From Leptothrix discophora (lineage in GTDB: Bacteria; Pseudomonadota; Gammaproteobacteria; Burkholderiales; Burkholderiaceae_C): DNA of 64,000 nt. How positions within the stretch are numbered: position 1 is the stretch's first letter; every line of letters begins with the position of its first letter. Under the pieces are notes generated by a model. The model made no database searches and had not been told where the DNA came from. It saw nothing but the letters and a program-made list of their open reading frames with translations. Positions 37,597 to 53,781 of this stretch are shown one piece after another. The stretch is from assembly GCF_030705305.1 (NCBI RefSeq), contig NZ_JAUZEE010000003.1, forward strand, positions 186,001 to 250,000, given 5' to 3'. A program made the translations under genes and the position numbers.

Positions 37597-37673
37597 GCCC
37601 GATGCGCCGCTTGATACGGATCAACTGAGCGAGAGACATGCCAGAGCGGGCCGGGCGGCACGGGCCGGCAACG

Positions 37674-37691
37674 GCCCGACACGTGTCGGGC
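37674..37691. promoter_or_regulatory. 18-base perfect palindrome
   Basis: GCCCGACAC followed directly by GTGTCGGGC, with no spacer. It could serve as an operator for a dimeric regulator or as part of a terminator for the upstream ROK gene; no T-run follows. Confidence 0.5.
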
Positions 37692-37705
37692 AAATGAATT
37701 GGGGA

Positions 37706-37756
37706 ATTCGACACAGCCTTTTCCGGCAATCCCCTGCCGGTATGGGGGTGTCGAAT
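37706..37756. repeat. Nested inverted repeat upstream of the MCP gene
   Basis: Outer arms ATTCGACAC (37706-37714) and GTGTCGAAT (37748-37756) are perfect complements. Inside them CCGGCA and TGCCGG form a second hairpin around ATCCCC. The outer arms repeat the GACAC/GTGTC half-site of the palindrome 15 bases upstream. It may be an RNA structure in the leader or a paired operator. Confidence 0.55.
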
Positions 37757-37933
37757 GCATGCACTCCCTGACACGAACCGCAAGCCCTGACGACAGGCAG
37801 GCGGCTGTGCATGCACGGGCGGGCAACAGGGCACCTCGGTGGTGGTCAGGCCTGGTTCGGTCGCGGAGGTGGACCGGTTGCCAGCGTGGCGACCGGCCGA
37901 AGCCCTCACACACTGCCCTTTTGGAGCCTGCCC

Positions 37934-39865
37934 ATGTCCCTCGTCCGCAAAACCAGCTTCGCGTCCAAGGAATCCGATACCGCCCTTCATGCCATGGCAG
38001 CGGGCATTCCGAAGGCGGTGGCCCGTGACGCAGACGCCCAGCGCAGGCGCGCCCGCACGCTGGCCAAGCAGCAGCAGGCCTCCGAGCGCGTGGCCTCGGC
38101 GTCGAGCCAGCTGGCAGCAGGCATCAACGAGGCCGCTTCGGCCGCCGAGGAGCTCAAGCGCGCCGCCACCCAGATCGCCACCGGCGCCGAAGAGGCCTCC
38201 GGCGCGGCACAGGAGTCGCTGGCGGCCATCACCCAGGTGTCGGCCTCGATCACGCGCCAGATGGCCGCCGTGACCCAGGCCCAGCGCACCGCCGAAGGCA
38301 TGCAGACGCTGGCCGCGGAGATCAACGGCCAGGTCGAGTCGACCGTCAACAACGTCGCCACCGCCGCCCAGCGCCAGGCCGAGTCGGTCAAGATGGTGGC
38401 CGAGCTGGAGCGCCAGGCCGCCAACATCGGCGAGATCGTCAAGGCGGTCGCGCGCATCGCCGACCAGACCAACCTGCTCGCGCTGAACGCCGCCATCGAG
38501 GCCGCCCGCGCCGGCAAGCACGGCAAGGGCTTCGCGGTGGTCGCCGACGAGGTTCGCACGCTGGCCGAGACCAGCGAGAAGAGCGCCAGGCAGATCCAGG
38601 AACTCGTCGGCCAGATCCAGGGCGAGGTCAAGACCATCGCCGAGGGCATCAACCTGAGTGCCGAGACGGTCCGCGGCGAGGTCGAGAAGAGCTCGGTCAT
38701 CCTCAAGCAGCTGGAGCAGATCCGCCAGGACGCCGCCGAGATCGCCGCCGGTTCGGGCGAGATCGCCACCGCCGCCAGCCAGAGCAACGTCGCCGCGCAG
38801 CAGGCCCTCAAGGGCGCCGAGCAGATCGCCTCGGCCGCCAACGAGCAGTCCTCGGCCTGCGAGGAGGCCAACAAGACCGTCACCGAGCAGACCACCGCCC
38901 TGTCGCAGTGCGAACAGACGGCCGCCGGCCTGTCAGAGATCGCCGACGAGCTGAAGAACTCGACCGACATCGCCAAGAGCGCCGAAGAGGTCGCCAGCGC
39001 CGCCGAGGAGCTCTCCAGCGCGGTGCAGGAGATCAACCGCTCGGCCGCGCAGATCATGGTGGCGCTCGACCAGATCCGCAAGGGTGCGCAGACCCAGGCC
39101 GTCGCCAGCGCCGAGTCGGCCGCTGCGGTGACCCAGATCGAGAAGGGTGCGCAGATCGCCGAGACCCGTGCCAGCGTCGCCAACGACCGTGCCGGCGCGA
39201 TCCGCACGCTGCTGGGCGACAACAAGAAGAACATCGACAGCCTGATCAGCGGCATCTCGAACAACGTCGGCACGACCGAGAGCAGCATCGCCCAGGTCAA
39301 GGACCTGGAACTGGTCTCGCGCAAGATCGACAAGATCGTGGACGCCATCACCCAGGTCTCGATCCAGACCAACATGCTGGCGGTCAACGGCAGCATCGAG
39401 GCAGCCCGCGCCGGCGAATACGGCAAGGGCTTCGTCGTGGTGGCCACCGACATCCGCAACCTGGCGCATGACTCGGCCGAGAACGCCGACCGCATCAAGG
39501 ACATGGTCAAGTCCATCCAGGACCAGATCGGCCTGGTCGGTCGGGACCTGAATGGCATCGTCACCTCGGCACTGACCGAGGTCGAGAAAGCCAAGGTCAT
39601 CACGATGAGCCTGAACCGGATCGAGGGCGACGTGGCCGAGATCCAGAAGGGCAACCAGGAAGCGGTGGCCGCCGCCCAGGAAATCGCCACCGCGGTGACC
39701 CAGGTGAAGGTCGGTGTCGAGCAGGTCTCGGCCGCCGCCGCCCAGGCCGAGAAGGCCGCCGAACAGGCCGCGGCCGCTGCCAGGCAGCAGTCGCAGGGGG
39801 CCGAGGAACTGTCGGCCGCGATCGAGGAAATCGCCTCGCTCGCCGACGAGCTGCAGAGCGCCTGA
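37934..39865 (+). CDS. Soluble methyl-accepting chemotaxis protein with two signalling tips
   Basis: A 643-residue, almost wholly helical coiled-coil protein with no transmembrane segment or recognised sensor domain. It has two copies of the MCP hairpin tip: [18 protein letters not shown] near residues 177-194 with [12 protein letters not shown], and a second [18 protein letters not shown] near 475-492 with [12 protein letters not shown]. Each tip is the site where CheA and CheW dock. It starts the chemosensory cluster. GGAG precedes the ATG at 37934. Soluble receptors of this kind are usually linked to non-flagellar outputs such as the Frz-type pathway, which is inference here. Confidence 0.87.
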
Positions 39866-39913
39866 GCGCCGCCCTTCCCCACCCCCGAAGTCAGCCTACC
39901 CAGGAGGTGTGCG

Positions 39914-41701
39914 ATGCGCACAGCCCTTGCCCTGCGTGACGATCACGCAGAGGCCGCCCTGCGCGGCCATCCCGCGCCCGGTGACCTTGATGCCGCCCCT
40001 CGCGATGCCCGCGACGATCTGGACGCGCTCGATGACGGCAGTGACGACGGCAGCGATGCCGCCAGCCAGAACCGGCAGTTCGTGACCTTCTCGGTCGCCG
40101 GCGAGATGTTCGCGGTGCCGATGGCGCCGGTGCAGGAAATCATCCGCGTGCCGGCCGTCGCCCACCTGCCGCTGGCGCCGCGCACGCTCGACGGCCTGGC
40201 CAACCTGCGTGGCCGGGTGCTGCCCATCATCAACCTGAGGCGCCTGTTCGGCTGCGACGAGCGCGAGCACGACGACGCGACGCGCGCGCTGGTCATCAAC
40301 CTCGGCCAGGCGCTGGGCTTCGTGGTCGACCGCGTCGCCAGCGTCGTCACGATCGAGGCCGGCGAGATGGAGCCGGCCGACGCGATCCAGAGCATCGTCA
40401 GCGCCGACTACCTGACCGGCGTGATCAAGCGCGCCCGGTCCGATGGCGGCCACGACATGCTGCTGTCGATCGACTTCGAGCGCCTGATCGAAGGCCAGTT
40501 CAGCGGCATCGGCGCGCTGCGCGGCGCCGAGCGCGCCGCCAGCAGCATCGGCAACCCGGCCGGCCTGGCCGAGGCTGACGCGCAGGACGACGACGTCGCC
40601 AGCGACGAGCTGCGCCTGGTGTCGTTCTCGGTCGCCCACCAGGAGTACGCGCTCGACATCGCCGAGGTGCAGGAGATCGTGCAGCTGCCCGAACGCATCA
40701 ACGCCTTGCCGAACACGCCCCACCACGTGCTGGGCGTGATCTCGCTGCGCGAGCGGCTGCTGCCGCTGGTCAGCCTGCGCGCGCTGTTCGGCCTGCCGAC
40801 GCTGGACGCTGCCGAGCAGCACCGCATCGTCGTGACCTCGCTGCCCGGCGGCCTCAGCGTCGGCCTGGTGACCGACTCGGTCAAGGAGGTGCTGAGCGTG
40901 CCGCGCGCCCAGGCCGAGCCGATGCCGGGCCTGCTGTCGGCCCAGCAGGACCTGGACGAGTTCTCGTCCATCTGCCGCCTCGACGGTGGCAAGCGCCTGG
41001 TGTCGATCATCGCCACCGACCGCCTGCTGCGCATGCCCGCGATCGAGCGGGCGCTCGATGCCAGCAGCCAACTTCCGACCGAGGACAACAGCGCCATGCG
41101 CCAAGACCGCACCCGCCAGAACAGCCTGCAGAACGGCCTGCACAGCGATGCCGACGACCGCGCCGACAGCGCCGACGACGACACCCAGGTGGTGATCTTC
41201 CGCCTCGGTGCCGAGGAGTTCGGCGTGCCGATCATGAGCGTGCAGGAGATCGTGCGCGTGCCCGAGGCCCTGACCCGCGTGCCGCGCACGCCGGCCTTCG
41301 TCGAGGGCGTGATCAACCTGCGCGGCACCGTGCTGCCGGTGATCGACCAGCGCAGCCGCCTGGGCCTGCCGACCATCGAGCGCAACGACCAGCAGCGCAT
41401 CATGGTCTACCTGATCGGCGGCATGCGCACCGGCTTCATCGTCGACTCAGTGGCCGAGGTGCTGCGCATCCCGCGCGGCCAGATCGTGCCGGCACCGACC
41501 CTGTCGACCGAGCAGAGCCAGCTGATCGGCCGGGTCGCCAACCTCGCGGGCAGCAAGCGCATGGTCATGCTGATCGAGCCCGCGCACCTGCTGCACGGCA
41601 GCGAGATGCAGGCGATGGCGCAGCAGCTCGCCACCCCGTCAGTGACAACGCCGGCCGCCGCCCGCAGCCACGACGACCGCACCGTCGCACGCGCCGCCTG
41701 A
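39914..41701 (+). CDS. Chemotaxis coupling protein with three CheW domains
   Basis: A 595-residue protein built of three successive CheW domains, approximately residues 53-195, 230-375 and 415-570, each with the F/V-V-PI-VQEI(I/V) start and a NLRG-LP(I/L)I or equivalent turn (NLRGRVLPIINL, SLRERLLPLVSL, NLRGTVLPVIDQ). Acidic linkers (DDGSDDGSDAA, DADDRADSADDD) join them. Ordinary CheW has one such domain and bridges receptors to CheA; three in one chain could crosslink receptor arrays. A perfect ribosome binding site (AGGAGG) is present. It follows the double-tip MCP gene and precedes cheB. Confidence 0.9.
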   Translation: MRTALALRDDHAEAALRGHPAPGDLDAAPRDARDDLDALDDGSDDGSDAASQNRQFVTFSVAGEMFAVPMAPVQEIIRVPAVAHLPLAPRTLDGLANLRGRVLPIINLRRLFGCDEREHDDATRALVINLGQALGFVVDRVASVVTIEAGEMEPADAIQSIVSADYLTGVIKRARSDGGHDMLLSIDFERLIEGQFSGIGALRGAERAASSIGNPAGLAEADAQDDDVASDELRLVSFSVAHQEYALDIAEVQEIVQLPERINALPNTPHHVLGVISLRERLLPLVSLRALFGLPTLDAAEQHRIVVTSLPGGLSVGLVTDSVKEVLSVPRAQAEPMPGLLSAQQDLDEFSSICRLDGGKRLVSIIATDRLLRMPAIERALDASSQLPTEDNSAMRQDRTRQNSLQNGLHSDADDRADSADDDTQVVIFRLGAEEFGVPIMSVQEIVRVPEALTRVPRTPAFVEGVINLRGTVLPVIDQRSRLGLPTIERNDQQRIMVYLIGGMRTGFIVDSVAEVLRIPRGQIVPAPTLSTEQSQLIGRVANLAGSKRMVMLIEPAHLLHGSEMQAMAQQLATPSVTTPAAARSHDDRTVARAA

Positions 41702-41741
41702 GCCATGCGCCATCGCAACCCCATGATCGGCTCGAACTGAC

Positions 41742-42860
41742 ATGAAGCGCGTCCTGGTCGTCGACGACTCGGCGCTGATGCGCAAGCTGCTGGGTGGCGT
41801 GCTCACCGAGGGCGGCTACGACGTGCGCACCGCCCGCAACGGCACCGAGGCGGTCGAGGAGGTGGTGCGCTGGACGCCCGACGTCGTCACCCTCGACATC
41901 AACATGCCCGAGATGGACGGCCTGACCGCGCTGTCGCTGATCATGGCCGCCCGGCCCACGCCGGTGGTGATGGTGTCCTCGCTGACCGAGCGCGGCGCGC
42001 TCGCCACCTTCGAGGCGCTGGCACTCGGCGCGGTCGACTTCATCCCCAAGCCCGGCGGCACGATCTCGCTGCACGTCAACGACATCCGCGCCCTGCTGCT
42101 CGACAAGTTGGCCTCGGCCGCCCGCGCGCGGCTCGGCCCGCGACCGGCCGCACGCGCCGCAGCCAAGCCGGTGGCACCGACCCGGCCGGGATCGACCACG
42201 CCGGCCCCGCAGCCCGCGAAGGCCGGTCCCGCCGGCCCGCTGCCGCGTGGCAGTGCCATGCCGGCGGCGTCGCCACGGGCCGGACAGGTGCCCGGCCTGG
42301 TGCTGGTGGGCGTGTCCACCGGCGGGCCGCGCACGCTCGAAGACATCCTGCCCAGGCTGCCCGCGAACTTCCCGTGGCCGGTGCTGGTCGCCCAGCACAT
42401 GCCGGCCAACTTCACCGACACCTTTGCCCGGCGCATGGACAGCCTCTGCGCGCTGAACGTGGTCGAGGTCAACGCCCCGATGGCGCTGTCGCCCGGCCAT
42501 GTCTACATCGGCCGCGGCGGCACCGACCTGACCGTCACCGACCGCGTCGGTGTGCTGCACGCCGCGCCACGACCCGAGACGCCCGGCGTGCTGTGGCATC
42601 CCTCGGTCGAGATCCTGGTCGACAGCGCGATGCAGCACCTGCCGGCGCACAAGCTGGTCGGCGTGATGCTGACCGGCATGGGCAACGACGGCGCCATCGC
42701 GATGGCCCGCCTGCACGCCCAGGGCGGCCGCACGATCGCCGAATCGGCCGACACCGCGGTGGTCTTCGGCATGCCGCAAGAACTGATCGAACGCCGTGCC
42801 GCGACGCTGGTGCTGCCCTGCACCAGCATCGCCTCCCAGCTGCGCCTGTGGCTGCCGTGA
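41742..42860 (+). CDS. cheB: Chemotaxis protein-glutamate methylesterase CheB
   Basis: A 372-residue CheB: receiver domain (VVDDSALMRK, phosphorylatable Asp in TLDINMPEMDG near residue 54), a long Ala/Pro linker (about 125-180) and the methylesterase domain with catalytic Ser in GVSTGGP, His in AQHMP and Asp in TGMGNDGA. It demethylates/deamidates MCP glutamates and resets receptor sensitivity. All catalytic residues are intact. It is followed by a 79-base gap and the HEAT-repeat gene. Confidence 0.93.
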   Translation: MKRVLVVDDSALMRKLLGGVLTEGGYDVRTARNGTEAVEEVVRWTPDVVTLDINMPEMDGLTALSLIMAARPTPVVMVSSLTERGALATFEALALGAVDFIPKPGGTISLHVNDIRALLLDKLASAARARLGPRPAARAAAKPVAPTRPGSTTPAPQPAKAGPAGPLPRGSAMPAASPRAGQVPGLVLVGVSTGGPRTLEDILPRLPANFPWPVLVAQHMPANFTDTFARRMDSLCALNVVEVNAPMALSPGHVYIGRGGTDLTVTDRVGVLHAAPRPETPGVLWHPSVEILVDSAMQHLPAHKLVGVMLTGMGNDGAIAMARLHAQGGRTIAESADTAVVFGMPQELIERRAATLVLPCTSIASQLRLWLP

Positions 42861-42939
42861 CGCACGTCTGTCCCCGGTACCACACCTTGCACCACACCTT
42901 GCACCGCCCCCTGCAACCGCCCTCCCCGAGGACCGACCG

Positions 42940-43566
42940 ATGCCCTTGAAAAAATCCGGCGCCGCGACCGAACTGCACCAGGTCGAGACCCGCGACTACG
43001 GGCGCGACTTCGACGGCCTGGTCGCCCAGCTGCGTGACCCCGAGCCCGGCGTGCGCCGCTGGGCCGCGCGCGACCTGGCCAGCGAGCCGCGCGCCGCCGT
43101 CGCCGTGTGCGCCCGGCTGGCCGAGGAAGGGGACGCCAGCGTGCGGGTCGCGCTGTTCAACAGCGCCACCCAGATCGGCGGCGCGGCCATCGTGCAGGGC
43201 ATGGTCAGGCTGCTGCGCAGCGAGGACGCGGGACTGCGCAACGGTGCGATCGAGGTGCTGGCCGGCCTGCCCGACGCCGTCGCGCCGCAGGTCGATGCGC
43301 TGCTGCGCGACCCCGACAGCGACGTGCGCATCTTCAGCGTCAACCTGCTGGGCGACCTGCGCCACCCGAACGTGCCGCAGTGGCTGGCCCAGGTGCTGCT
43401 GCACGACGAGGCGGTCAACGTCGTCGGCGCGGCCCTGGAGGTCGCGGCCGAGGTCGGCACGGCCGGGACCCTGCCGGCGCTGCGCGCGGCCCGCGAGCGC
43501 TTCGCCGCCGACGCCTACATCAGCTTTTCGGTCGACCTCGCGATCGAGCGGATCGAGTCGACATGA
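42940..43566 (+). CDS. HEAT-repeat protein in the chemosensory operon
   Basis: A 208-residue protein with four to five HEAT-like helical repeats (RRWAARDLASEP, VRVALFNSATQI, LRNGAIEVLAGLP, VRIFSVNLLGDLRHP, AVNVVGAALEVAAEVG). Such repeats serve as protein-binding scaffolds. HEAT proteins are known in some alternative chemosensory clusters, where their partner is generally unknown. GAGGA lies before the ATG at 42940, and its stop overlaps the cheR start, so it is made together with CheR. Confidence 0.85.
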   Translation: MPLKKSGAATELHQVETRDYGRDFDGLVAQLRDPEPGVRRWAARDLASEPRAAVAVCARLAEEGDASVRVALFNSATQIGGAAIVQGMVRLLRSEDAGLRNGAIEVLAGLPDAVAPQVDALLRDPDSDVRIFSVNLLGDLRHPNVPQWLAQVLLHDEAVNVVGAALEVAAEVGTAGTLPALRAARERFAADAYISFSVDLAIERIEST

Positions 43567-44423
43567 GAGCCCCCGGCCTGGCCGCACGGCACACCATCAC
43601 CGACGCCGACTTCCAGAAGTTCGCCGAGTTCTTCTACCGCAAGACCGGCATCCACTTCGACGACGGCAAGCGCTACTTCGTCGACAAGCGCCTGATCGAG
43701 CGCATGGAGGCCACCGGGGCGGAGAACTTCCGCGCCTACTTCGTCGCGCTGCGCTTCGAGGCAGACGGTGCCGAGATGCAGCACCTGATCAACTCGATGA
43801 CGGTCAACGAGACCTACTTCTTCCGCGAGGCCTACCAGTTCGACTGCCTGGTCAACGACATCCTCAACGAGGTCGCGCGGCGCAAGCGGCCGGGCTCGCG
43901 CATCCGCATCTGGTCCATCCCCTCGTCGACCGGCGAGGAGCCCTACTCGATCGCGATCTACCTGCTTGAGCGCTGGGCCCTGATCAACGACTACGAGGTC
44001 GAGATCCTGTCCTCGGACATCGACACCGAGGTGCTCGCCTCGGCCCAGCGCGGCTGCTACTCGGCCCGTTCGGTGGCGCAGCTGCCGCAGGCCTACCTGC
44101 GCAAGTACTTCACCCCGCACGGCCCGCACGAGTGGCGCATCTCGCGCGACCTGGTCGACTCGGTCGAGTTCAGCCGCGTCAACCTGTCCGAGCCGGCCGA
44201 CACGCGGCGCTTCCGCGACATCGACGTCGTCTTCTGCCGCAACCTGCTGATCTATTTCGACGACCTGTCGCGGCGCGTCGCGGCCGAGGCGCTGTACGAC
44301 GCGATGAGCCCGGGCGGCTTCATCTGCCTGGGCCATTCCGAGTCGATGAGCCGCATGTCATCCCTCTACACCGTGCGCCGCTTCGCCGACGCGATGGTCT
44401 ACCAAAAACCGCTGGAGGCCTGA
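43563..44423 (+). CDS. cheR: Chemotaxis protein methyltransferase CheR
   Basis: A 286-residue CheR with an N-terminal helical domain and a SAM-dependent methyltransferase domain. Landmarks are MTVNETYFFRE (near residue 78), IWSIPSSTGEEPYSIA in the SAM site and CRNLLIYFDD. It methylates receptor glutamates, opposing CheB. One feature is that the SAM motif reads SIPSSTGEEP in place of the more usual AAxCSTGEEP, and should still be functional. The start overlaps the HEAT gene stop. Confidence 0.92.
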   Translation: MRAPGLAARHTITDADFQKFAEFFYRKTGIHFDDGKRYFVDKRLIERMEATGAENFRAYFVALRFEADGAEMQHLINSMTVNETYFFREAYQFDCLVNDILNEVARRKRPGSRIRIWSIPSSTGEEPYSIAIYLLERWALINDYEVEILSSDIDTEVLASAQRGCYSARSVAQLPQAYLRKYFTPHGPHEWRISRDLVDSVEFSRVNLSEPADTRRFRDIDVVFCRNLLIYFDDLSRRVAAEALYDAMSPGGFICLGHSESMSRMSSLYTVRRFADAMVYQKPLEA

Positions 44424-44425
44424 CC

Positions 44426-44860
44426 ATGAGCCTGACCCCGAAACCGCGCCGCATCCTCGTGGTCGACGACGCCGCAACGGTCCGCATGTACCACCGCAAG
44501 ATCCTCGGCGATGCCGGCTGGCACACCGACGAGGCGATCAATGGCGTCGAGGCGCTCGAACGGGTGCACCTGCAGGACGTCACCCAGCCCTTCGACCTCT
44601 ACGTCGTCGACATCAACATGCCGCGCATGGACGGCTACAGCTTCGTGCGCGAGCTGCGCAAGCTCGATCCCCGCCACCAGGCGCCAGTGTTGATGGTCTC
44701 GACCGAGGCGCGCCGCCAGGACGCCAGCAGCGCCTTCGACGCCGGCGCCAACTGCTACCTCGTCAAGCCCGCCCGCCCGGCCGAACTGGTGCTGTCGGCC
44801 GCGCTGCTGCTGGGCGACCGCCCGGCCGCGCGGATCGCCGCCGAAGGAGCGAGCGCATGA
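44426..44860 (+). CDS. CheY-like response regulator
   Basis: A 144-residue single receiver domain. Acidic pair VVDDAATVR, phosphorylatable Asp in YVVDINMPRMDG (near residue 59), Thr/Ser in VSTEA and Lys in LVKPARP. GGAGG precedes the ATG. It overlaps cheA by four bases. It would accept phosphate from CheA; the output partner is unknown. Confidence 0.9.
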   Translation: MSLTPKPRRILVVDDAATVRMYHRKILGDAGWHTDEAINGVEALERVHLQDVTQPFDLYVVDINMPRMDGYSFVRELRKLDPRHQAPVLMVSTEARRQDASSAFDAGANCYLVKPARPAELVLSAALLLGDRPAARIAAEGASA

Positions 44861-47355
44861 ACCAGACCGACCTGCTGGAACAGTTCGTCCTCGAGGCGCG
44901 CGACTGCCTCGAATCGATCGGCAAGCGCCTGCTCGAGGTCGAACGCGATCCCGGCAACACCGACCTGCTCAACGACCTGTTCCGCTCCGTCCACACGCTC
45001 AAGGGCAACTGCGGGCTGTTCGAGTTCAAGCCGCTCGAACGCGTGGTGCATGCGGGCGAGGACCTGCTCGACCGCATCCGCAACCGCAGCCTGGCCCACA
45101 GCGCCAGGATCGCCGATGCGCTGCTGGACGCGATGGACTACAGCGCCGAGCTGATCGACGAGATCGAGCGCACCGGCCGCATCGCCGACGCGGCCGACGC
45201 CCGCTCGCAGCACCACGCCGCCGCGCTGCGTGCGCTGCTGGAACCGGCCGCCTTGCCGTCTGCCTTGACGGGTGCCTTGCCGGGTGCCTTGCCGGCTGCC
45301 CTGCCGATGCCCGCCCCGGATCTGGCACCCGCCGTCGCGGTCGCCATTGCCCCGGCCAACACCCATGCCGCACCCGACTGGCTGGCGCGCCTGGACCCTG
45401 CGCTGCGGCAGGCCCATGCCGGCGCAACCGCGCTGCGCTACGTGCCCGAGCCCGAGTGCTTCTTCAAGGGCGAGGACCCCTGGCGCCTGGCCAGCACCAC
45501 GCCCGGCCTGCTGGCCGTCGACGTGGCGGGCCAGCAGCCCTGGCCGGTCGGCGACGAGCAGGTGCGCTGGGACTGCTACCAGTGCAACCTCGACATCGTG
45601 CTGATCAGCAGCGCGCCGCAGGCCGACCTGGAAGAACACTTCCGCTGCGTGCCCGAGCAGGTGGCCTATGCCAGCGTCGCTGCGGCAGACGCGGCGGCAG
45701 ACGCGGTGACGACCGGCGAGCCCGACACGGCGACCACCGGCGAGCCCGACACGGCCGCACCGGCGCCGGGATCGCGCGCCGGGCAGACCCTGCGCCGGCG
45801 CGCCCAGGCGATCTGGGCCGACCAGCTCGCGCTGCTGGGGCGCAGCGGCCTGGGCGCCGGCAGCATCGCCTCGGCGCGGCGGGCGCTCGGCCACCTGCTG
45901 GCGTGCGTCGACGACGACGACGCGCGACGCGCTGCGGCCGACCTGGCCACGCTGCCGGGCACGGTCTCGGCCGCCGGCCTGCTGGCCTGGGCCCGCCAGC
46001 AGCCACTGGGACGGGCAGCGGACGCCGCAGCGGTCGAGCCGATGGAGCCGGCCGCCGCGGCTGCCTGGAACGGCCACGACGGCGGCCTGGCCGAGATCGG
46101 CCTGGAAGAAGTGCCGACCACCGATGCGCCGACCGCCGACGCACCGCGCCGCGTCGACGATGCGAACGGCGCGCCCGCCCAGCGTGTGCTCAAGGTCACG
46201 CAGGAAAAGGTCGACCGGCTGATGGACCTGATCGGCGAGATGGTGGTGGCCAAGAACAGCCTGCCCTACCTGGCCCAGCGCGCCGAGCAGGCCTTCGGCC
46301 AGCGGGAGCTGGCGCGCGAGATCAAGGCCCAGTACGCGGTCATCAACCGCATCGCCGAGGACATGCAACACGCCATCATGCAGGTGCGCATGCTGCCGGT
46401 GGGCGTGGTGTTCCAGCGCTTCGGCCGGCTGATCCGCGACATCTCCAGGAAGCTCGGCAAGGACGTCAACCTGGTGATCGAGGGCGAGGACACCGAGGCC
46501 GACAAGAACGTCATCGAGCCGCTGGCCGACCCGCTGATCCACATCCTGCGCAACAGCCTGGACCACGGCATCGAGCGCCCCGAGGTGCGCCGCGCCGCCG
46601 GCAAGCCGGTGGTGGGCACGATACGCATCCGTGCCCACCAGGAGAGCGACCGCGTGCTGATCGAGATCAGCGACGACGGCGCCGGCGTGGACCCGGCCCG
46701 CGTGCGCGCCAAGGCGGTCGAGCGCGGCCTGATCCCGGCCGACCGGGCCGGCTCGCTGTCCGACGCCGACTCGGTCCAGCTGATCTTCCTGCCCGGCTTC
46801 TCGACCGCCGACGCGATCTCCGACCTGTCGGGCCGCGGCGTCGGCATGGACGTGGTGCGCAACGCGGTCGAACGCATCAACGGCTCGGTCGAGCTGCACA
46901 GCGTGCTCGGCCAGGGCACGACGATCCGGCTGGCGCTGCCGCTCTCGATGGCCGTCTCCAACGTGATGGTGATCGAGAGCGCCGGGCGCCACTTCGGCGT
47001 ACCGATGGACCTGATCGTCGAGACCGTGCGGGTGCACGGCGACGACATCCACCAGTTCAAGCAGGCCCGCACCACGGTGCTGCGCGGACGCATCGTGCCG
47101 CTGCGCGCGCTCAACGAGCTGCTGGCGCTCGACGCCCCGGCCCGCCTCAACGACGACGGCGAGTTCACCGTGCTGGTGCTGCGCCTGGGCACCGAGACGG
47201 TCGGCCTGCTGGTCGACCAGTTCCACGGCGCCAGCGACATCATCCTCAAGCCGCTCGAGGGCGTGCTGGCCGGGCTGACCGGCTTTGCCGGCACCGCGCT
47301 GATGGGCGACGGTGGCGTGCTGATGGTGCTGAACCCGAAGGAATTGCTGCCATGA
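44857..47355 (+). CDS. cheA: Chemotaxis histidine kinase CheA
   Basis: An 832-residue kinase. HPt domain at 1-110 with phosphoacceptor His46 in SVHTLKG; an Ala/Pro linker with a repeated LPGALPAALP-like motif (about 125-160); a middle region with ECFFKGEDPW; the dimerisation/P3 region near VTQEKVDRLMDLIGEMVV (about 447-465); the ATPase domain (NSLDHGIE, DDGAGVD, GRGVGMD) and a C-terminal CheW-like domain. It autophosphorylates at the HPt and feeds CheY, CheB and possibly the downstream receivers. Stop overlaps the next gene. Confidence 0.93.
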   Translation: MNQTDLLEQFVLEARDCLESIGKRLLEVERDPGNTDLLNDLFRSVHTLKGNCGLFEFKPLERVVHAGEDLLDRIRNRSLAHSARIADALLDAMDYSAELIDEIERTGRIADAADARSQHHAAALRALLEPAALPSALTGALPGALPAALPMPAPDLAPAVAVAIAPANTHAAPDWLARLDPALRQAHAGATALRYVPEPECFFKGEDPWRLASTTPGLLAVDVAGQQPWPVGDEQVRWDCYQCNLDIVLISSAPQADLEEHFRCVPEQVAYASVAAADAAADAVTTGEPDTATTGEPDTAAPAPGSRAGQTLRRRAQAIWADQLALLGRSGLGAGSIASARRALGHLLACVDDDDARRAAADLATLPGTVSAAGLLAWARQQPLGRAADAAAVEPMEPAAAAAWNGHDGGLAEIGLEEVPTTDAPTADAPRRVDDANGAPAQRVLKVTQEKVDRLMDLIGEMVVAKNSLPYLAQRAEQAFGQRELAREIKAQYAVINRIAEDMQHAIMQVRMLPVGVVFQRFGRLIRDISRKLGKDVNLVIEGEDTEADKNVIEPLADPLIHILRNSLDHGIERPEVRRAAGKPVVGTIRIRAHQESDRVLIEISDDGAGVDPARVRAKAVERGLIPADRAGSLSDADSVQLIFLPGFSTADAISDLSGRGVGMDVVRNAVERINGSVELHSVLGQGTTIRLALPLSMAVSNVMVIESAGRHFGVPMDLIVETVRVHGDDIHQFKQARTTVLRGRIVPLRALNELLALDAPARLNDDGEFTVLVLRLGTETVGLLVDQFHGASDIILKPLEGVLAGLTGFAGTALMGDGGVLMVLNPKELLP

Positions 47356-47675
47356 CGATCCGCTACCTGAAGAAGCATGCCGCGCTCGAGGGCCACGTCG
47401 CGGTCGACGACGCCGAGGCACTGGCGCAATGGCTGCTGAAGCAGCCGAGCCCTGCGGTACACCTGGGCAAGTGCGAGCACCTGCACGCCGCCGTGCTGCA
47501 GGTGCTACTGGCGCTGCGGCCGCGTCTGGTGAAGCCGCCGACGGATGCGCTGCTGGCTGGCGTGCTGGCCGGCGTGCAGGCTGGCGTGCAGGCAGATGAC
47601 CGATCGAACGACCGCACGACCCAGCTCAAGGTCGGGCACCGGTCGGACTCAGGTTTGTCGGCATCCGACCGATGA
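47352..47675 (+). CDS. Small protein following cheA, possible STAS-like
   Basis: A 107-residue protein overlapping the cheA stop by ATGA. Residues 1-63 (with AVHLGKCEHLHAAVLQVLLALRP near 33-55 as landmark) resemble the strand-helix pattern of small STAS/MlaB-like domains found at this position in some chemosensory operons. The rest is low complexity (LAGVLAGVQAGVQA) and polar. The assignment is tentative, and no phosphorylatable serine could be placed. Confidence 0.5.
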   Translation: MTIRYLKKHAALEGHVAVDDAEALAQWLLKQPSPAVHLGKCEHLHAAVLQVLLALRPRLVKPPTDALLAGVLAGVQAGVQADDRSNDRTTQLKVGHRSDSGLSASDR

Positions 47676-47762
47676 ACCGTACGGAGGTCAGGTGCAAGGG
47701 CGCAGCCGTGCCGGCACCGATCCTGTCTCAACCCGGCCCGACGCTGGCCGACTGGAACCCGC

Positions 47763-48128
47763 ATGAAGACCATCTTTCTGATTGACGACTCGGCCACGAT
47801 GGTGATGAGCGTCAAGACCACCCTCGAGATCTCGGGGTTCAAGGTCGAGACCGCCGCCGACGGCGAGCAGGCGATGGGCAAGATCAACAAGGGCCTCAAG
47901 CCCGACCTGATCATCACCGACATCAACATGCCGAAGATGGACGGGATCGAGTTCATCCGCAACGCCCGCAAGATCCTGCGCTTCACGCCCATCCTGACGC
48001 TGACCACCGAGAGCCAGCAGGCCAAGCGCGACGAAGCCAAGAAGCTCGGCGCCTCGGGCTGGCTGGTCAAGCCGATCGGCGGGGCCGACCTGCTGAAGGT
48101 GATCAAGCAAGTGCTGCCGGGAGCCTGA
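47763..48128 (+). CDS. CheY-like response regulator (second)
   Basis: A 121-residue receiver with no output domain: LIDDSATM, phosphorylatable Asp in [12 protein letters not shown] (near residue 57), Thr in LTTES and Lys in LVKPIGG. It lies after an 87-base gap, which is the longest inside this half of the cluster, and one base before the small MCP gene. With the CheY at 44426 it gives CheA a second soluble target or phosphate sink. Confidence 0.9.
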
Positions 48129-48129
48129 G

Positions 48130-49179
48130 ATGGCCACGCGCCCGACCGCGATGGCGTCCCTGCGGGGCCGGATCTGGCATGCCCGCCAGCGGCTGGCCGA
48201 CTGGATCTCGCCGCAGCCACGTGTGTCGGCCGAGTGCGAGGCGGTGGCCGGCATGCGCGAGCTTGACCGCCAGGTGATGACGCAGCTCGGCCGTGCCGTC
48301 GGGCTGTCGGAGACCGCCACGGTCGACTTCGTCGGCCGCCTGTCGGACCTGCACGACCTGTCGCACAAGCTGGTGCAGTACCTCGACACCGCCCACGTGC
48401 AAAGCCAGGCGATGCAGGCCAGCATGGAAGGCAACAGCCACATCATCCAGGAGCTGGCCTCCTTCGTGCAGACGCTGCCGGCGCAGATCGCGCAGGAACG
48501 GGTGCATTTCCACCAGCTGGTCACCGAGGTCAAGGGCCTGTCGGACATGACCGACGCGATCCGCGCCATCGCGCGCCAGACCGAGATCCTGGCGATCAAC
48601 GCCGCGATCGAGGCGGCCCGCGCCGGCGAGGCCGGCCGGGGCTTCGCGGTGCTGGCCGGCGAGGTGCGCCGGCTGGCCACCCAGTCCAACGAGTCGGCGG
48701 CCCGCATCAACAACGACATCACGCGGCTGGTGAAGACGGTCGAGGTCGGCTTCAGTGGCGACTTCAACGCCCGCACCCGTCACAACGAGGCCGAGGCCGA
48801 ACGTCTGGGCAACCTGACGCGCCAGCTCGACGAGAGCTACGTCGACATGCGCCAGTTCTACGAGATGCTGGTGACGGCGGTCACGCAGCACAACCACGAG
48901 CTCGACCAGGGTATCGGCCAGATGCTGAACGCCGGCCAGTACCAGGACGTGTTCAAGCAGATCATCGACCGCGTCGAGCCGGCCCTGGAAAGCCGCCACC
49001 AGGTGCTCTCCGACCTGATCACCCGGCTGCGCAGCGGCGCACGCGACACCGCCGAGGTCGACGCCCGGGCACGCGAGCTGGCACCCAACTATCTGGCGGG
49101 TGAAGCCGACCACCGCGACCCCGATGACCCCGCTCACGCCGGAGCGGCCGCGAGCGGTCCGCGCATCGAGCTTTTCTGA
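48130..49179 (+). CDS. Small soluble methyl-accepting protein
   Basis: A 349-residue receptor without a membrane segment. The MCP tip is at [18 protein letters not shown] with [14 protein letters not shown] (about 153-185). The C-terminal part includes [15 protein letters not shown], a segment typical of cytoplasmic MCPs found in alternative chemosensory systems. It has no recognised ligand domain and may sense through other proteins in the cluster. Confidence 0.87.
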
Positions 49180-49202
49180 CCGAGCCGAAAGACACCCTGG
49201 CC

Positions 49203-49592
49203 ATGGCCCACATCCTGCTGATCGATGACGACGACCTGCTGCGCGACACCGTGCTGCAGATGCTGCAACTGGACCGTCACGACGTCACCGAGGCACCCGA
49301 TGGCCAGACCGCGCTGCGACTGTCCGCCGGCCGCGGCGGGCGTGGCTTCGACCTGGTCATCACCGATGTGTTGATGCCCGGCATGGACGGCACACGCGTG
49401 ATCGTCGAACTGCGCCGCAACCACCCGAGGCTGCCTATCATCGCGATCTCGGGTGGACGACGCGTGCTGTCGCCGCAGTTCAACCTCGAGACCGCCGCGC
49501 TGGCGGGCGCTGTCTGCCAGCTCGCCAAGCCCTTCACCCGCCAGGCGCTGCAAGCGGCCGTGGCGGCGGCCCTGGAGTCCCCGTCCACATGA
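49203..49592 (+). CDS. Response regulator (receiver only) at the Che/Rsb junction
   Basis: A 129-residue receiver with the acidic LIDDDDLLRD, phosphorylatable Asp in LVITDVLMPGMDG (near 58), Ser in AISGG and Lys in LAKPFTR. It overlaps the RsbR start by four bases, so it belongs translationally to the stressosome half. It is a reasonable partner for the terminal histidine kinase gene, or for CheA. Confidence 0.88.
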   Translation: MAHILLIDDDDLLRDTVLQMLQLDRHDVTEAPDGQTALRLSAGRGGRGFDLVITDVLMPGMDGTRVIVELRRNHPRLPIIAISGGRRVLSPQFNLETAALAGAVCQLAKPFTRQALQAAVAAALESPST

Positions 49593-50455
49593 ACATGTCC
49601 TCGATCGACGCACGGCTCGCCGAGATGCTGCGCAGCCGTGCCGCCGACATCAGCCGCAACTGGCGCGAGCGCCTGCGCCAGACCGGCGGCAACCACCTGC
49701 ATGGCCTGACGCCCGAGACCGAGCTCGATGCCGAGATGGCCGGGCTGCTCGGTGGCCTGGACGCCGCGCTCGACAACCCCGACGACCGCTTCGGCACCGA
49801 CACCGGCCATCCGCTGGCCATCGCCCTGCGCATGGCCAGCCAGGTGCGCGCCGCGCGCGGCTTCACGCCCGAGGAATCGCTGCTGTTCGTGCAGACCTGC
49901 AAGGAAGCGCTGATCGACACGCTGCACGGCCACGCGCCGCTGCGCGAGTCGCTGCTGCCCGCCACGCTGCGCATCGAACGCCTGATGGACCGCTGCGTGC
50001 TGGTGCTGGCGAGCGCCTTCATGGCCGCGCGCGAGGACGTCATCCAGCGCCAGACCGAGTCGCTGCGCGAGGTCTCGACGCCGGTGATCACGCTGTGGGA
50101 CTCGATCCTGCTGCTGCCGCTGGTGGGCGTGGTCGATTCGGTGCGGGCGCAGCAGATCTCCGAGCGCCTGCTCGAGGCGATCGGCCGCAGCGAGGCCGAG
50201 GTCACGCTGATCGACGTGACCGGCGTGCCGGTGATGGACACCAGCGTCGCGCGGCACATCCTCAAGACCGTCGCCGCGGCCGAGATGCTCGGCACCCGCG
50301 TGATCCTGACCGGCATCAGCCCGAGCACGGCGCAGACCATGGTCAAGCTCGCGATCGACCTGTCGAGCGTGCCCACCCGCGGTTCGCTCAAAGCCGGCAT
50401 GGCGCTGGCGCTGACGATGACCGGCCGGCGCATCACCGACGCCGCATCGAGCTGA
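49589..50455 (+). CDS. rsbR: RsbR-like stressosome sensor (RsbRD_N + STAS)
   Basis: A 288-residue protein with an N-terminal helical RsbRD-type sensor domain (about 1-150) and a C-terminal STAS domain (about 165-285). The STAS part has VTGVPVMDTSVARHIL, whose Thr218 corresponds to the RsbT phosphorylation site of RsbR, and TGISPSTAQT, with a second candidate Thr. RsbR forms stressosome shells with RsbS and controls release of RsbT. It leads the rsbR-S-T series. The input signal is unknown. Confidence 0.88.
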   Translation: MNMSSIDARLAEMLRSRAADISRNWRERLRQTGGNHLHGLTPETELDAEMAGLLGGLDAALDNPDDRFGTDTGHPLAIALRMASQVRAARGFTPEESLLFVQTCKEALIDTLHGHAPLRESLLPATLRIERLMDRCVLVLASAFMAAREDVIQRQTESLREVSTPVITLWDSILLLPLVGVVDSVRAQQISERLLEAIGRSEAEVTLIDVTGVPVMDTSVARHILKTVAAAEMLGTRVILTGISPSTAQTMVKLAIDLSSVPTRGSLKAGMALALTMTGRRITDAASS

Positions 50456-50456
50456 C

Positions 50457-50831
50457 ATGCGCGTACCCATCCTGCGGCTCAACGCCGACGTGCTGATCGT
50501 GGCGCTGTCCGCCGACATCAGCGACGAGGACGTGATGGACTTCCAGTCCGACCTTGCCGAGCGCGCCGCAGCGATGCAGGCACGTGGCCTGGTCATCGAC
50601 GTGTCGGCGCTCGACGTGATCGACTCCTTCATGGCCCGTGTCCTCAACGACAGCGCGCGCATGCTGCGCCTGCTCGGTGCCGAGGTGGTCGTCTGCGGCG
50701 TGCAGCCGGCGGTGGCCATGACGCTGGTCGAGATGGGCAGCAAGCTGGTCGACGTGGCCACCTCGTTCACGCTCGAAGGCGCGTTGCGACGCCTGGCGCA
50801 GCGGATGGACCAGGCGGCCCGCGATGCTTGA
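50457..50831 (+). CDS. rsbS: RsbS-like STAS antagonist
   Basis: A 124-residue single STAS domain. Ser57 in DVIDSFMARVL matches the serine phosphorylated by RsbT in RsbS. RsbS holds RsbT in the stressosome until phosphorylated. It starts two bases after the rsbR stop and overlaps rsbT by eight bases. Confidence 0.9.
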   Translation: MRVPILRLNADVLIVALSADISDEDVMDFQSDLAERAAAMQARGLVIDVSALDVIDSFMARVLNDSARMLRLLGAEVVVCGVQPAVAMTLVEMGSKLVDVATSFTLEGALRRLAQRMDQAARDA

Positions 50832-51231
50832 GCTGCTGGCGAGCGACGACATCGTGCGTGCGCGCCTGGCCGCGCGCGACCTGGCCCGGGCCGCCGGCCT
50901 GGGCGTGATGGACCAGACCCGCTTCGCCACGGCGGTGTCCGAACTCGGTCGCAACGCGGTGCGCTACGCGGTGCAGGGGCGCTGCGAACTGAGCGACCAG
51001 TCCGACGCCCGCACGGTGCGGCTGCAGGCCTGCGTGCGCGACAGCGGCCCAGGCATCTCCGACCTGACGCTGGCGCTGCAGGACGGCTACTCCACCGCCG
51101 GCAGCATGGGCGCCGGGCTGCCCGGCACGCAGCGCCTGGTCGATGTCTTCGAGATCGAGTCCACCCCGGCCGGCACCGTGGTGACCGTGCAGATCGTGCG
51201 GCCGCGGCGCAACACGGGCCGTGTGGCATGA
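50824..51231 (+). CDS. rsbT: RsbT-like switch kinase (HATPase_c)
   Basis: A 135-residue GHKL kinase: N-box SELGRNAVRYA, G1 box RDSGPGISD and G2 box GAGLPGTQRLVD. It phosphorylates RsbS and RsbR and, once released, binds the N-terminal domain of RsbU-type proteins. Here the only RsbU-like N-terminal domain in the window is on the histidine kinase at 52291. It overlaps both neighbours, as expected for a partner-switching operon. Confidence 0.9.
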   Translation: MLELLASDDIVRARLAARDLARAAGLGVMDQTRFATAVSELGRNAVRYAVQGRCELSDQSDARTVRLQACVRDSGPGISDLTLALQDGYSTAGSMGAGLPGTQRLVDVFEIESTPAGTVVTVQIVRPRRNTGRVA

Positions 51232-51656
51232 CGGCCGAGCAGGCGACGCGCGACGAGCTGACGCTGACGGTCGGCCATGAAGGCGACGTGGCGCACGTCA
51301 TCGCCAGCGTGATGCGCTTCTGCAGCGAGCACAACCACGACAGCGTGTTTGCCGCGCACGTCGCCACGGCCAGCTCCGAGCTCGCCAACAACCTGTGGAT
51401 GCACACGCCGGACGGCGGCCAGATCCGGCTGCGCTGGCTCGAGACGGGCCTGCGCCGTGGTGTCGAGCTGCGCGCCGACGATCGCGGACCCGGCATCCCC
51501 GACCTCTCGCTGGCGATGACCGAGGGCTACAGCACCGGCGGCGGCATGGGTTGCGGCCTGCCCGGCGTCGAGCGGCTGATGGACGACTTCGACATCCGCT
51601 CCCAGCCGGGCAGCGGCACGCAGGTGGTGACGCACAAATGGCTGCGCCGTCGCTGA
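51228..51656 (+). CDS. Second RsbT/RsbW-like ATPase
   Basis: A 142-residue GHKL ATPase paralogous to the preceding gene. It has N-box SELANNLWMH, G1 box DDRGPGIPD and the G2 motif GMGCGLPGVERLMDD. The ATP-binding residues look intact. Whether it is a kinase for another STAS protein, a regulator of RsbT or an ATPase for the phosphatase is unknown. ATGA overlap with rsbT and 19-base overlap with the phosphatase gene. Confidence 0.87.
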   Translation: MTAEQATRDELTLTVGHEGDVAHVIASVMRFCSEHNHDSVFAAHVATASSELANNLWMHTPDGGQIRLRWLETGLRRGVELRADDRGPGIPDLSLAMTEGYSTGGGMGCGLPGVERLMDDFDIRSQPGSGTQVVTHKWLRRR

Positions 51657-52291
51657 CCGGCAGCGCGCCCCGTCTGAGCACCCGGCGCGCCCATCTGCTG
51701 GAGGCCCTCAAGGCGGACGAGCCCTGCGGCGACGCCGTGGGCTGCTGGCTGGCCGACGGCACAGCGGGCCTCGATGCCAGCGGCAGCGCCGACGGCCTGC
51801 TTGCCGTGATCGACGGCCTGGGCCACGGCCGCGAAGCCGCGCAGGCGGCACAGGTCGCGCTGCAGACGATCGGCGCCGCGCCTGAGCTGCCGATGCCCGA
51901 GCTGTTCGTCCGGCTCGACCGCGCGCTGTTCGCCACCCGTGGCGCGGCAATCGGCCTGCTGCGCATCGACGGCCAGCGCCTGCACCATGCCGGCGTGGGC
52001 AACACGCGGCTGCTGCACTGGCGCGCCAGCGGCCTGGTGCGGCTGAACTCGCAGAACGGCATCGTCGGAGGCGGCTTGCCGACGCAGGTGGTCGAGACCG
52101 AACATCCCCTGCAGGCCGGCGACTGGCTGCTGCTGTTCACCGATGGCCTGGACGAACGCGTGCGACTGCCGCTGCGCCTGCCCGAGTGGCAGCGCGACCC
52201 TGCCATCCTGTGTCAGCACCTGATGAAGCACGCACGCGCCGGGCGCGACGACGCCGGCGTGATGGTGGTGCAGATCGGAGTGGCCGCCTGA
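51638..52291 (+). CDS. rsbX: RsbX-like PP2C/SpoIIE phosphatase
   Basis: A 217-residue phosphatase of the SpoIIE/PP2C type. Metal-site motifs are GDAVGCWLAD (about 31-40), VIDGLGHGREAA and the late RDDAGVMVVQ. HAGVGNTRLL is also conserved. In Bacillus RsbX dephosphorylates RsbR and RsbS and resets the stressosome; the short single-domain form here fits RsbX, not RsbU. It overlaps the following kinase gene (TGATG). Confidence 0.87.
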   Translation: MAAPSLTGSAPRLSTRRAHLLEALKADEPCGDAVGCWLADGTAGLDASGSADGLLAVIDGLGHGREAAQAAQVALQTIGAAPELPMPELFVRLDRALFATRGAAIGLLRIDGQRLHHAGVGNTRLLHWRASGLVRLNSQNGIVGGGLPTQVVETEHPLQAGDWLLLFTDGLDERVRLPLRLPEWQRDPAILCQHLMKHARAGRDDAGVMVVQIGVAA

Positions 52292-53697
52292 TGGACCGGG
52301 TCGAACGCCTGCTGGTGCCCTACACCACGCTGCTGAGCCGCTATGCGCTGTCGCCCGATCCGTTTGTGCGGGAGGGCGTGCTGATCGAGGCCACCGAGCT
52401 GGGCAAGTCCGTGCTGGACGATGGCCCCGCGGTCGACCAGATGCATGAGGTGCACGCGCGCGCCCAGGCCGACCTGGCACAGCGCTGGCGCGACTCGCCC
52501 GAAGGCAGCGCGCCGCAGCGGGGCCGCGAGGCCCTGGTGCGTGGCGAGGCGCTGCCGCTCATGCTGGCCTTGCAGCTGCCGCATGAACTGGCGACCAAGG
52601 CCCACCACGAGCAGCGCTGGCGCCGTGAGCACGAGACGCTGGTGGCGATGTTCGAGCAGACCGACGACCTGATCGCGGTGCTCGACGTCGACGGCCAGTG
52701 CGACGACGTCAACCCGGCCTTCTGCCGCTCGACCGGCTGGACCCGGCGCGAGGCGGTCGAGGGCGCCGGCGCCTGGGCCGAGCCGCCACAGGGCGTGCAG
52801 ACGCAGCGCCGGCGCACCCAGCAACGTCGGCGCGATGGCAGCAGCCTGCTGGTGGACTGGTCGATCTCGCCGATCCTGGGCCGGCGCGGCGAGCTGCTGA
52901 GCCACGTCTGCATCGGCCGCGACGTCGACCGCCAGCAGAAGATCGAGGACAGCCTGCGCGAGAACGACAAGCTGCGCGCCGTCGCCACGCTGGCCGGCGG
53001 CATCGCGCACGACTTCAACAACCTGCTCGGCTCGATCATCGGCCTGACCGAGCTGTGCGAGCTCGAGGCCGTCGCCGGCTCACGCCAGGCCCGCAACCTC
53101 GGGCGCATCCAGCAGGCCGGCGCCAAGGCCGCGGCACTGGTGCGGCAGATGCTCGACTTCTCGCGCCAGACGCCCCCCGCGCTGCAGCCGATCGACCTGG
53201 CCGACTGGCTCGGCCAGGCCGAGCCGCTGCTGCGTGCGGCCATGCCACGCCAGCAGGGCCTCACGGTCGAGGTGCGGGACGGCGGCAGGATCCAGATCGA
53301 TCCGGTGCAAATGGAACAGGTGCTGCTGAACCTGGTGCGCAACGCCGCACAGGCCATGGGTGACAGCGCGGGACAGGTGCGCATCAGCGCCGACCACGCC
53401 GAGCCCGGTGGCGCCGGACGCCCGCAAGCCGGGTCGACCGACACGCACCTGCGGCTGCGCATCAGCGACACCGGCAGCGGCATCCCGCCCGACCTGCTGG
53501 ACAAGATCTTCGAGCCCTTCTTCACCACCAAGCCGGTCGGCGAAGGCACCGGCCTGGGCCTGGCGGCGGTACACGGCATCGTCAGCAGCCACGCGGGCGT
53601 CATCGAGGTCGACAGCCAGGTGGGCGTGGGGACCACCTTCAGCCTGTTCCTGCCCCTGGACCCAGACCGCGCGCCGGTCCAGCCATCCGACCGTTGA
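52291..53697 (+). CDS. RsbU_N-like::PAS::histidine kinase fusion
   Basis: A 468-residue protein. Residues 1-90 resemble the RsbT-binding N-terminal domain of RsbU (VPYTTLLSRYALSP near 8-21, IEATELGKSVLDD). A PAS domain follows (about 118-225: FEQTDDLIAVLDVDGQC, NPAFCRSTGW). The rest is a histidine kinase with His240 in AGGIAHDFNNLLG and the ATPase boxes (VLLNLVRNAAQAM, ISDTGSGIP, GTGLGLAAVHGIV). In RsbU the same N-terminus precedes a PP2C phosphatase; here the output is a kinase. It ends the cluster; a convergent hrpA follows after 84 bases. Confidence 0.85.
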   Translation: MDRVERLLVPYTTLLSRYALSPDPFVREGVLIEATELGKSVLDDGPAVDQMHEVHARAQADLAQRWRDSPEGSAPQRGREALVRGEALPLMLALQLPHELATKAHHEQRWRREHETLVAMFEQTDDLIAVLDVDGQCDDVNPAFCRSTGWTRREAVEGAGAWAEPPQGVQTQRRRTQQRRRDGSSLLVDWSISPILGRRGELLSHVCIGRDVDRQQKIEDSLRENDKLRAVATLAGGIAHDFNNLLGSIIGLTELCELEAVAGSRQARNLGRIQQAGAKAAALVRQMLDFSRQTPPALQPIDLADWLGQAEPLLRAAMPRQQGLTVEVRDGGRIQIDPVQMEQVLLNLVRNAAQAMGDSAGQVRISADHAEPGGAGRPQAGSTDTHLRLRISDTGSGIPPDLLDKIFEPFFTTKPVGEGTGLGLAAVHGIVSSHAGVIEVDSQVGVGTTFSLFLPLDPDRAPVQPSDR

Positions 53698-53781
53698 GCG
53701 CCCTGCGAGCCCGTCAGGGTCGAGGGACGGCCGGCGACAGGCCAGCGAACAACAGGCGAACAACAGGCGATCAACCGGCAA

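Follow-up and report, generated by a model that had tools for sequence, protein, structure and literature searches.

A gene cluster of Leptothrix discophora that joins F9-like chemosensory genes to a stressosome module, and its conservation among proteobacteria

Do a chemosensory pathway and a stressosome that are encoded in one run of genes work together, or are they merely neighbours? The question is raised by a cluster of 17 genes, all on the plus strand, at positions 37934-53697 of a stretch of 64,000 nucleotides from Leptothrix discophora (assembly GCF_030705305.1, contig NZ_JAUZEE010000003.1, positions 186,001 to 250,000; this whole stretch is called the window below), whose genome, G000 in our samples, is grouped in one genus with Sphaerotilus mobilis and S. 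hippei. The genes lie in the order MCP1, CheW3, CheB, HEAT, CheR, RRa, CheA, STL, CheY, MCP2, RR2, RsbR, RsbS, RsbT, RsbT2, RsbX and HK (histidine kinase), that is, a chemosensory (che) half is followed by a stressosome (rsb) half (Table 1). That this joined order recurs in many distantly related proteobacteria suggests that the two sensing machines, which have been studied apart, may often act as one.

The che-rsb junction and its conservation

The original prediction, made from the DNA letters, described the che genes as running into the rsb genes without a strand change or a promoter-sized gap, and with many overlapping neighbours. All the che and rsb genes that it named were indeed found on the plus strand where it had placed them, no internal gap is wider than 87 bp, and 8 of the 16 junctions overlap (five by 4 bp and the three others by 1, 8 or 19 bp). 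Its gene list was incomplete, however, since a seventeenth gene of 107 codons, STL (47352-47675), had been overlooked, the start of which overlaps the CheA stop in an ATGA. The interval 47675-47763, which had been named as one of the junctions of interest, is the gap between STL and CheY and belongs to the che half, as does the other of the two widest gaps (STL-CheY, 87 bp; CheB-HEAT, 79 bp). The border region proper is 48128-49592, where CheY and MCP2 are 1 bp apart and MCP2 and RR2 23 bp. Both of the soluble MCPs that had been described are present, but the second one sits 3' of CheY, where it forms the transition to the rsb half.

Conservation in relatives, on which the original prediction had made itself depend, is found in several proteobacterial classes. 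A locus scan with an alignment of the RsbS clade returned 246 stretches and 83 relatives, the best 80 of which were kept; because these loci were drawn from patterns of one RsbS clade, the proportion given here describes that clade and not all stressosomes. An orthologous CheA gene lies upstream on the same strand in 49 of the best 80 loci, and the rest include one locus just below the CheA cut-off (L140), nine with a shorter upstream sequence and two whose RsbS falls below the cut-off (L151 and L152). Adding L140 and the genus genome G005 to the 49 gives a set of 51 loci, in which about 2.6-5.0 kb (median 2.97 kb) separate the stop of CheA from the start of RsbS and no recognised opposite-strand gene intervenes. 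An MCP gene stands between CheA and RsbS in 48 of the 51 when a BLAST match to either MCP1 or MCP2 is counted (31 of 51 by a stricter tip pattern), and the other three loci have one downstream. By NCBI class, the 51 loci comprise 22 gamma-, 13 alpha-, 10 beta- and one deltaproteobacterial locus and one of the Desulfuromonadia, together with three without a class (G005 among them) and one cyanobacterial metagenome-assembled genome (MAG). The genera with the joined order include Rubrivivax, Allochromatium, Marichromatium, Ectothiorhodospira, Methylobacter, Methylotuvimicrobium, Undibacterium, Delftia, Magnetospirillum, Rhodovulum and Methylobacterium. It should be noted that the CheA of the cyanobacterial locus (L145, filed as a Synechococcaceae MAG) pairs with that of Candidatus Contendobacter, and this contig is therefore probably misbinned.

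Two explanations of the junction were rejected: chance neighbourhood is ruled out by its conservation, and an artefact of a single assembly by its presence in many named genomes.

Closer to the window, the two halves are contiguous in three of the four RsbR-bearing genomes of the genus (G000, G004 and G005), G005 having an additional MCP between CheY and MCP2. RsbR (E up to 1e-15) was found in 53 of 399 genomes of the family, among which G069, from a different genus (the same locus as L028, L052 and L085), has the halves joined in the same way, CheB through HK, with a CheA that is 43% identical. The 27 family loci L024-L050 were viewed with 1.5-kb flanks, which reach the nearest genes only, and within these flanks MCP2 and RR2 lie upstream only in L028. 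In a sample of 274 genomes of the class, RsbS (E up to 1e-12) and an F9-like CheA (E up to 1e-95) were each found in eight, and both in three, the window genome included, where 0.23 would be expected if they were independent; the two genes adjoin in G000 and G847, and in G715, an assembly of 360 contigs, they are on separate contigs.

The distances between proteins of the two halves correlate at 0.63-0.91 (CheA-RsbR 0.91; CheA-RsbS 0.85, reached in 0 of 2000 permutations), roughly as well as those within the halves, at 0.86-0.95 (che) and 0.52-0.84 (rsb). As this mirror-tree comparison covers 47 loci and the window and has no species-tree control, it shows co-inheritance, not co-evolution. Given that the junction is conserved across classes, there is good support for a coupled unit, even if each half is also found without the other. 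The linkage would say little about function if the joined block had spread by transfer as a unit, and some CheA placements in a quick tree do cross taxonomy, for example those of Delftia and Zoogloea beside an Anaeroferrophillacea MAG. We regard such hitch-hiking as quite improbable; gene order has persisted through deep divergence even as single genes crossed the che/rsb border, which argues against it. The same tree has seven changes between the joined and separate labels, five of them forced, and since it combines loci selected through RsbS with others, from a single family, that lack rsb, it does not prove the joined state to be ancestral.

Table 1. Features of the joined cluster and of the sequence before it, in window positions
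Feature	Positions	Strand	Assignment and basis
ROK-type gene	36271-37596	+	5' neighbour, 337 bp from cluster
Upstream region	37597-37933	+	337 bp; sole promoter-sized gap before cluster
MCP1	37934-39865	+	PF00015 6.9e-65, several stretches; soluble, DosM-type double-tip receptor
CheW3	39914-41701	+	PF01584 2.3e-97, 3 stretches; three CheW domains in one protein
CheB	41742-42860	+	Methylesterase with receiver; PF01339, PF00072
HEAT	42940-43566	+	HEAT-repeat protein; PF13646
CheR	43563-44423	+	Methyltransferase; PF01739, PF03705
RRa	44426-44860	+	CheY-like receiver; PF00072
CheA	44857-47355	+	Kinase (Hpt, dimerisation, ATPase, CheW); PF01627, PF02895, PF02518, PF01584
STL	47352-47675	+	Small STAS-like protein; CxHLHxAxLQ motif conserved (alignment of orthologues)
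CheY	47763-48128	+	Single-domain receiver; PF00072 1.4e-26
MCP2	48130-49179	+	Soluble MCP between the halves; PF00015 2.8e-24
RR2	49203-49592	+	Single-domain receiver; PF00072
RsbR	49589-50455	+	PF14361 (RsbRD_N), PF01740 (STAS); likely phosphosites S184, T218
RsbS	50457-50831	+	STAS; phmmer 2.5e-26 to solved RsbS; likely phosphosite S57
RsbT	50824-51231	+	Switch kinase; PF13581 1e-13; ATP-binding motifs kept
RsbT2	51228-51656	+	Second RsbT/SpoIIAB-like kinase domain; PF02518, PF13581; TIGR01925 4.7e-10
RsbX	~51638-52291	+	PP2C/SpoIIE-type phosphatase; PF07228 3.5e-11
HK	~52291-53697	+	Histidine kinase: PAS, HisKA and HATPase after an N-terminus that aligns with relatives carrying RsbU_N; no transmembrane-like stretch

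The two halves and the genes that may link them

The che half looks like an F9 system on three features of its predicted proteins, namely a double-tip receptor, a triple CheW and cytoplasmic receptors. The two signalling tips of MCP1 are at residues 177-208 and 477-508, and neither MCP has a transmembrane-like stretch by sequence (maximum 19-residue hydropathy 1.06 for MCP1 and 0.71 for MCP2). The Hpt histidine of CheA is present in 31 of 48 aligned rows, the other 17 being gapped there, probably through trimming. As described in PMC7534058, the F9 cluster I of Vibrio cholerae encodes the receptor DosM (VC1403), with two signalling domains, a concatenated triple CheW (VC1402) and CheA (VC1397). 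The window has the same double-tip receptor, triple CheW and CheA, and the locus tags VC1403, VC1402, VC1397 and VC1394 (an MCP) follow its gene order. In contrast to the window, the available part of PMC7534058 mentions no stressosome genes in that cluster. The F9 proteins of V. cholerae form double-layered cytoplasmic arrays that are observed in starvation or low oxygen, and whose role is called poorly understood (PMC7534058).

In the rsb half, RsbR, RsbS and RsbT are encoded together with RsbX, and the STAS part of RsbR matches solved RsbR at ~3e-30 (phmmer). We take S57 of RsbS and S184 and T218 of RsbR to be the acceptor positions, by alignment to solved proteins and from family knowledge; these predicted acceptors are kept in 48 of 48 (RsbS S57), 48 of 48 (RsbR S/T184) and 47 of 48 (S/T218) aligned sequences. 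RsbT is identified by its HATPase_c_2 match and gene position only, and a phmmer search against solved structures found no relative of it. The N-box and G-box residues of RsbT2 are retained in 47-48 of 48 aligned sequences, and, given its resemblance to SpoIIAB, RsbT2 may have a role like that of RsbW. A SigB-type pathway within the operon was considered and rejected, with neither a sigma factor nor RsbU among the 17 genes. An RsbU_N search of the whole genome gave 0 matches, a weak negative since the kinase of the window itself also escapes it, and one that covers the rest of the genome for RsbU_N only.

Two genes near the border, STL and MCP2, are candidates for tying the halves together. 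STL is a conserved protein, which rules out that its interval is a non-coding gap; C41 and H45 are invariant and H43 nearly so in 13 orthologues, and the protein could bind a metal or a ligand. Its top Foldseek matches are STAS proteins. CheS of Sinorhizobium meliloti, likewise a small STAS-like protein encoded with CheA, is a possible counterpart. MCP2 (E up to 1e-30) occurs in 11 of 399 family genomes at 12 places, four of which adjoin rsb (G000, G002, G005 and G069) and one of which is an MCP2-RR2-HK set; at E up to 1e-35 it was found in one of 200 genomes of the order, that of the window itself. In S. hippei (G002), MCP2 and RR2 remain beside rsb though the halves are split. These observations bear on the possibility of physical co-assembly, in which MCP2 and STL would dock the stressosome, or RsbT and RsbT2, on the F9 array to form one composite particle. 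A STAS fold is what RsbT-like kinases bind, STL models as such a fold, and the ParA-type ATPase described below, encoded in half of the loci, would also fit. STL and MCP2 are, however, also present in che clusters where rsb was not seen, and the evidence for a STAS assignment is weak: the best Foldseek E is 1.5e-3, and STAS_2 matched in 5 of 13 orthologues (best E 0.01). We consider co-assembly unlikely.

Apart from adjacency and matching protein distances, genes that change sides are a further sign that the two halves form one unit. One family of ParA-type ATPases (43-56% identical to the copy in L121) is encoded in 25 of 50 loci. It stands in the che half, before CheY, in 12 loci, namely 11 of the Alphaproteobacteria (L126, L130-L132, L136, L137, L139, L140, L142, L144 and L147) and the unclassed L125; in 12 others, of gamma, beta and delta type (for example L077, L087, L092, L098, L107, L110, L121 and L122), it is found past the stressosome genes, and in L104 between a relocated kinase-receiver pair and RsbR. 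The window genome has no close copy, its best being 35% identical. ParA-type proteins segregate the cytoplasmic chemosensory clusters of Rhodobacter sphaeroides. A receiver like RR2 likewise lies upstream of RsbS in 21 of 51 loci and downstream in 22, although such receivers are hard to tell apart and their orthology is unsure. Among individual loci, HK lies between the MCP and RsbR rather than 3' of RsbX in L090, L101 and L104, and L114 (13457-15606; Methylotuvimicrobium buryatense) has another CheR and CheB after its rsb-HK-RR2 block.

The side-switching genes matter for a plainer account, in which the halves share a promoter and are needed in the same condition, such as starvation or low oxygen, with no molecular cross-talk. 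The condition in which the V. cholerae arrays are seen (PMC7534058) and the reported expression of the Vibrio vulnificus stressosome in minimal medium agree with mere co-expression, as do the findings that the halves separate yet stay intact and that no fusion proteins were found in the scanned loci. Co-expression alone does not readily account for the ParA gene and, if orthologous, the RR2-like receiver on either side of the rsb genes, nor for an MCP between CheA and RsbR in 48 of the 51 loci. We hold it to be possible, if somewhat less than probable.

A proposed circuit and the evidence for and against it

The output of the rsb half would run through the histidine kinase. Its N-terminus is helical in the predicted model (pLDDT 95.4) and aligns with that of relatives, and RsbU_N (PF08673, E up to 0.01) was detected in 23 of 26 aligned kinases, which are our own selection and include nine from loci where no CheA was found. 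A receiver domain is carried by six of the 26. At positions 9797-13112 of L068, MCP2, RR2 and HK adjoin without any rsb gene, the kinase there having GAF and PAS domains, and the receiver-kinase pair may thus be the older partner of MCP2. Because the pair adjoins without rsb in L068 and because some of the kinases carry a receiver, RR2 is the likely partner that HK phosphorylates. RsbU_N binds RsbT in Bacillus, and its presence on proteins downstream of RSTX modules has already been described (PMC9237108).

Based on this evidence, we propose one circuit in which an F9 array and a stressosome act, the latter via RsbT, on HK and a single-domain receiver. The double-tip receptor and triple CheW would form a membrane-free lattice of two layers in which CheA is held; CheR and CheB would adjust this array, and CheY and RRa would be its receivers. 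A core of RsbR and RsbS would hold RsbT, RsbX would reset that core, and RsbT2 would act as a further kinase. In known stressosomes, RsbT leaves the core under stress and docks on RsbU_N, RsbX resets the core, and in chemosensory systems CheA phosphorylates CheY-type receivers. By analogy with this family biochemistry, RsbT would phosphorylate RsbR and RsbS under stress, leave the core and dock on the RsbU_N-like N-terminus of HK, which would then phosphorylate RR2. MCP2 and STL might tie the two halves together, and CheA and the stressosome-controlled HK might be read out jointly through a shared pool of single-domain receivers. What is observed is the gene content and order, their broad conservation, the acceptor residues and RsbU_N in orthologues of the kinase; the tie, the integrating receiver and the output are inferred only. 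If this is correct, two large supramolecular sensors, one working by His-Asp and the other by Ser/Thr phosphorylation, are predicted to be wired together. Of the earlier proposal of two arrays feeding one output, the coupled unit and a stressosome-to-kinase arm, backed by RsbU_N in the kinase orthologues, are retained, but the arm by which CheA would reach the same receiver stays conjectural.

Several observations weigh against this circuit. CheA is absent from 19 of the best 80 loci despite at least 9 kb of upstream sequence, although one of these, L078, has CheY and an MCP. In the genus sample of 13 genomes, a CheA orthologue was found in eight and RsbR in four, three genomes (G012, G011 and G006) have che without rsb, and in S. 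hippei each half is inside a contig of its own; in the class sample, unlinked cases outnumber linked ones. At 7 of its 12 places (two of them on short contigs), MCP2 belongs to a che cluster for which rsb was not seen, and because MCP2 is the proposed tie, our confidence is lowered accordingly. In loci outside the Sphaerotilus-Rubrivivax group, the MCP at the linking place mostly shares no more than 25-38% identity with MCP2. The STAS fold of STL is only weakly indicated (pLDDT 77.7; TM-scores of 0.36-0.50 for the first nine Foldseek matches), and the only fusions in the scanned loci were kinase-receiver and CheB-type cases, none joining che to rsb. As for the kinase arm, RsbU_N was not detected when the HK of the window was searched singly, and the model of its N-terminus gave no Foldseek match under 1e-3. 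In V. vulnificus, an interaction test between RsbT and VvD1, the kinase downstream of it, gave no positive result, and RsbU_N was undetected there (PMC9237108). Taking both sides together, we regard the single circuit as evenly balanced between being right and wrong.

A further step would be to see the F9 array and the stressosome of many proteobacteria as parts of a single composite machine for sensing stress. A soluble MCP and a STAS-like protein would bridge the parts, ParA would distribute the machine at cell division in some lineages, and an RsbT-activated HK and single-domain receivers would read it out. We put this forward only tentatively; if true, it would assign a function to the F9 class, which has long lacked one.

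Relation to known systems, and the surroundings of the cluster

The closest known counterparts of the rsb half are Gram-negative RSTX modules with two-component outputs, such as RsbRSTX-D1-D2 of V. vulnificus, in which RsbR, RsbS, RsbT and RsbX are likewise followed by a histidine kinase and a receiver (PMC9237108, PMC10014275), and in some species the downstream protein carries RsbU_N (PMC9237108). The window differs in having a full che system upstream, a second RsbT-like kinase, and an RsbR with RsbRD_N rather than a globin. Stressosome mutants of that species show reduced motility (PMC10014275), and aerotaxis has been suggested as an output on the strength of a CheY-like gene next to rsbRST in Vibrio (PMC4976288). 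Partner-switching proteins also occur within the ancestral F7 chemosensory clusters, which carry an anti-sigma-factor antagonist and a serine phosphatase and for which a role in stress has been proposed (PMC7184735); these belong, however, to a different array class, and the available part of that paper does not mention the RsbR-RsbS-RsbT set. For the logic of a CheA and a histidine kinase converging on one receiver, the nearest precedent would be Che3 of Rhodospirillum centenum, where CheA and a second kinase are arranged around one single-domain receiver in a stress programme, the formation of cysts (PMC3868531). That system differs in that CheA3 phosphorylates CheS3 and only CheS3~P phosphorylates CheY3, and the abstract mentions no stressosome.

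A literature search of titles and abstract starts found no report of che-stressosome coupling, though a 2005 survey could mention such neighbours. The parts are thus known, and the new part appears to be their joined, conserved architecture. What follows Gram-negative stressosomes is described as largely open (PMC9237108, PMC10014275), and a widely conserved joint locus makes the role of F9 arrays and the output of stressosomes one question.

Around the cluster, consensus scans of the 337-bp upstream region gave no clear sigma-70, sigma-54 or sigma-28 match, and a sigma-70 scan of 37300-54200 gave 0 sites (mean of 0.4 in shuffles). Two terminator-like matches were found in the scan of 37300-54200, both on the minus strand and fewer than by chance. 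We infer that the cluster forms a single transcription unit. The starts of RsbX (~51638) and HK (~52291) are our choice, and that of HEAT was set at the ATG at 42940. The 3' neighbour of the cluster is an HrpA-type helicase gene on the opposite strand. Elsewhere in the window, at 7976-8067, ARAGORN predicts a selenocysteine tRNA.

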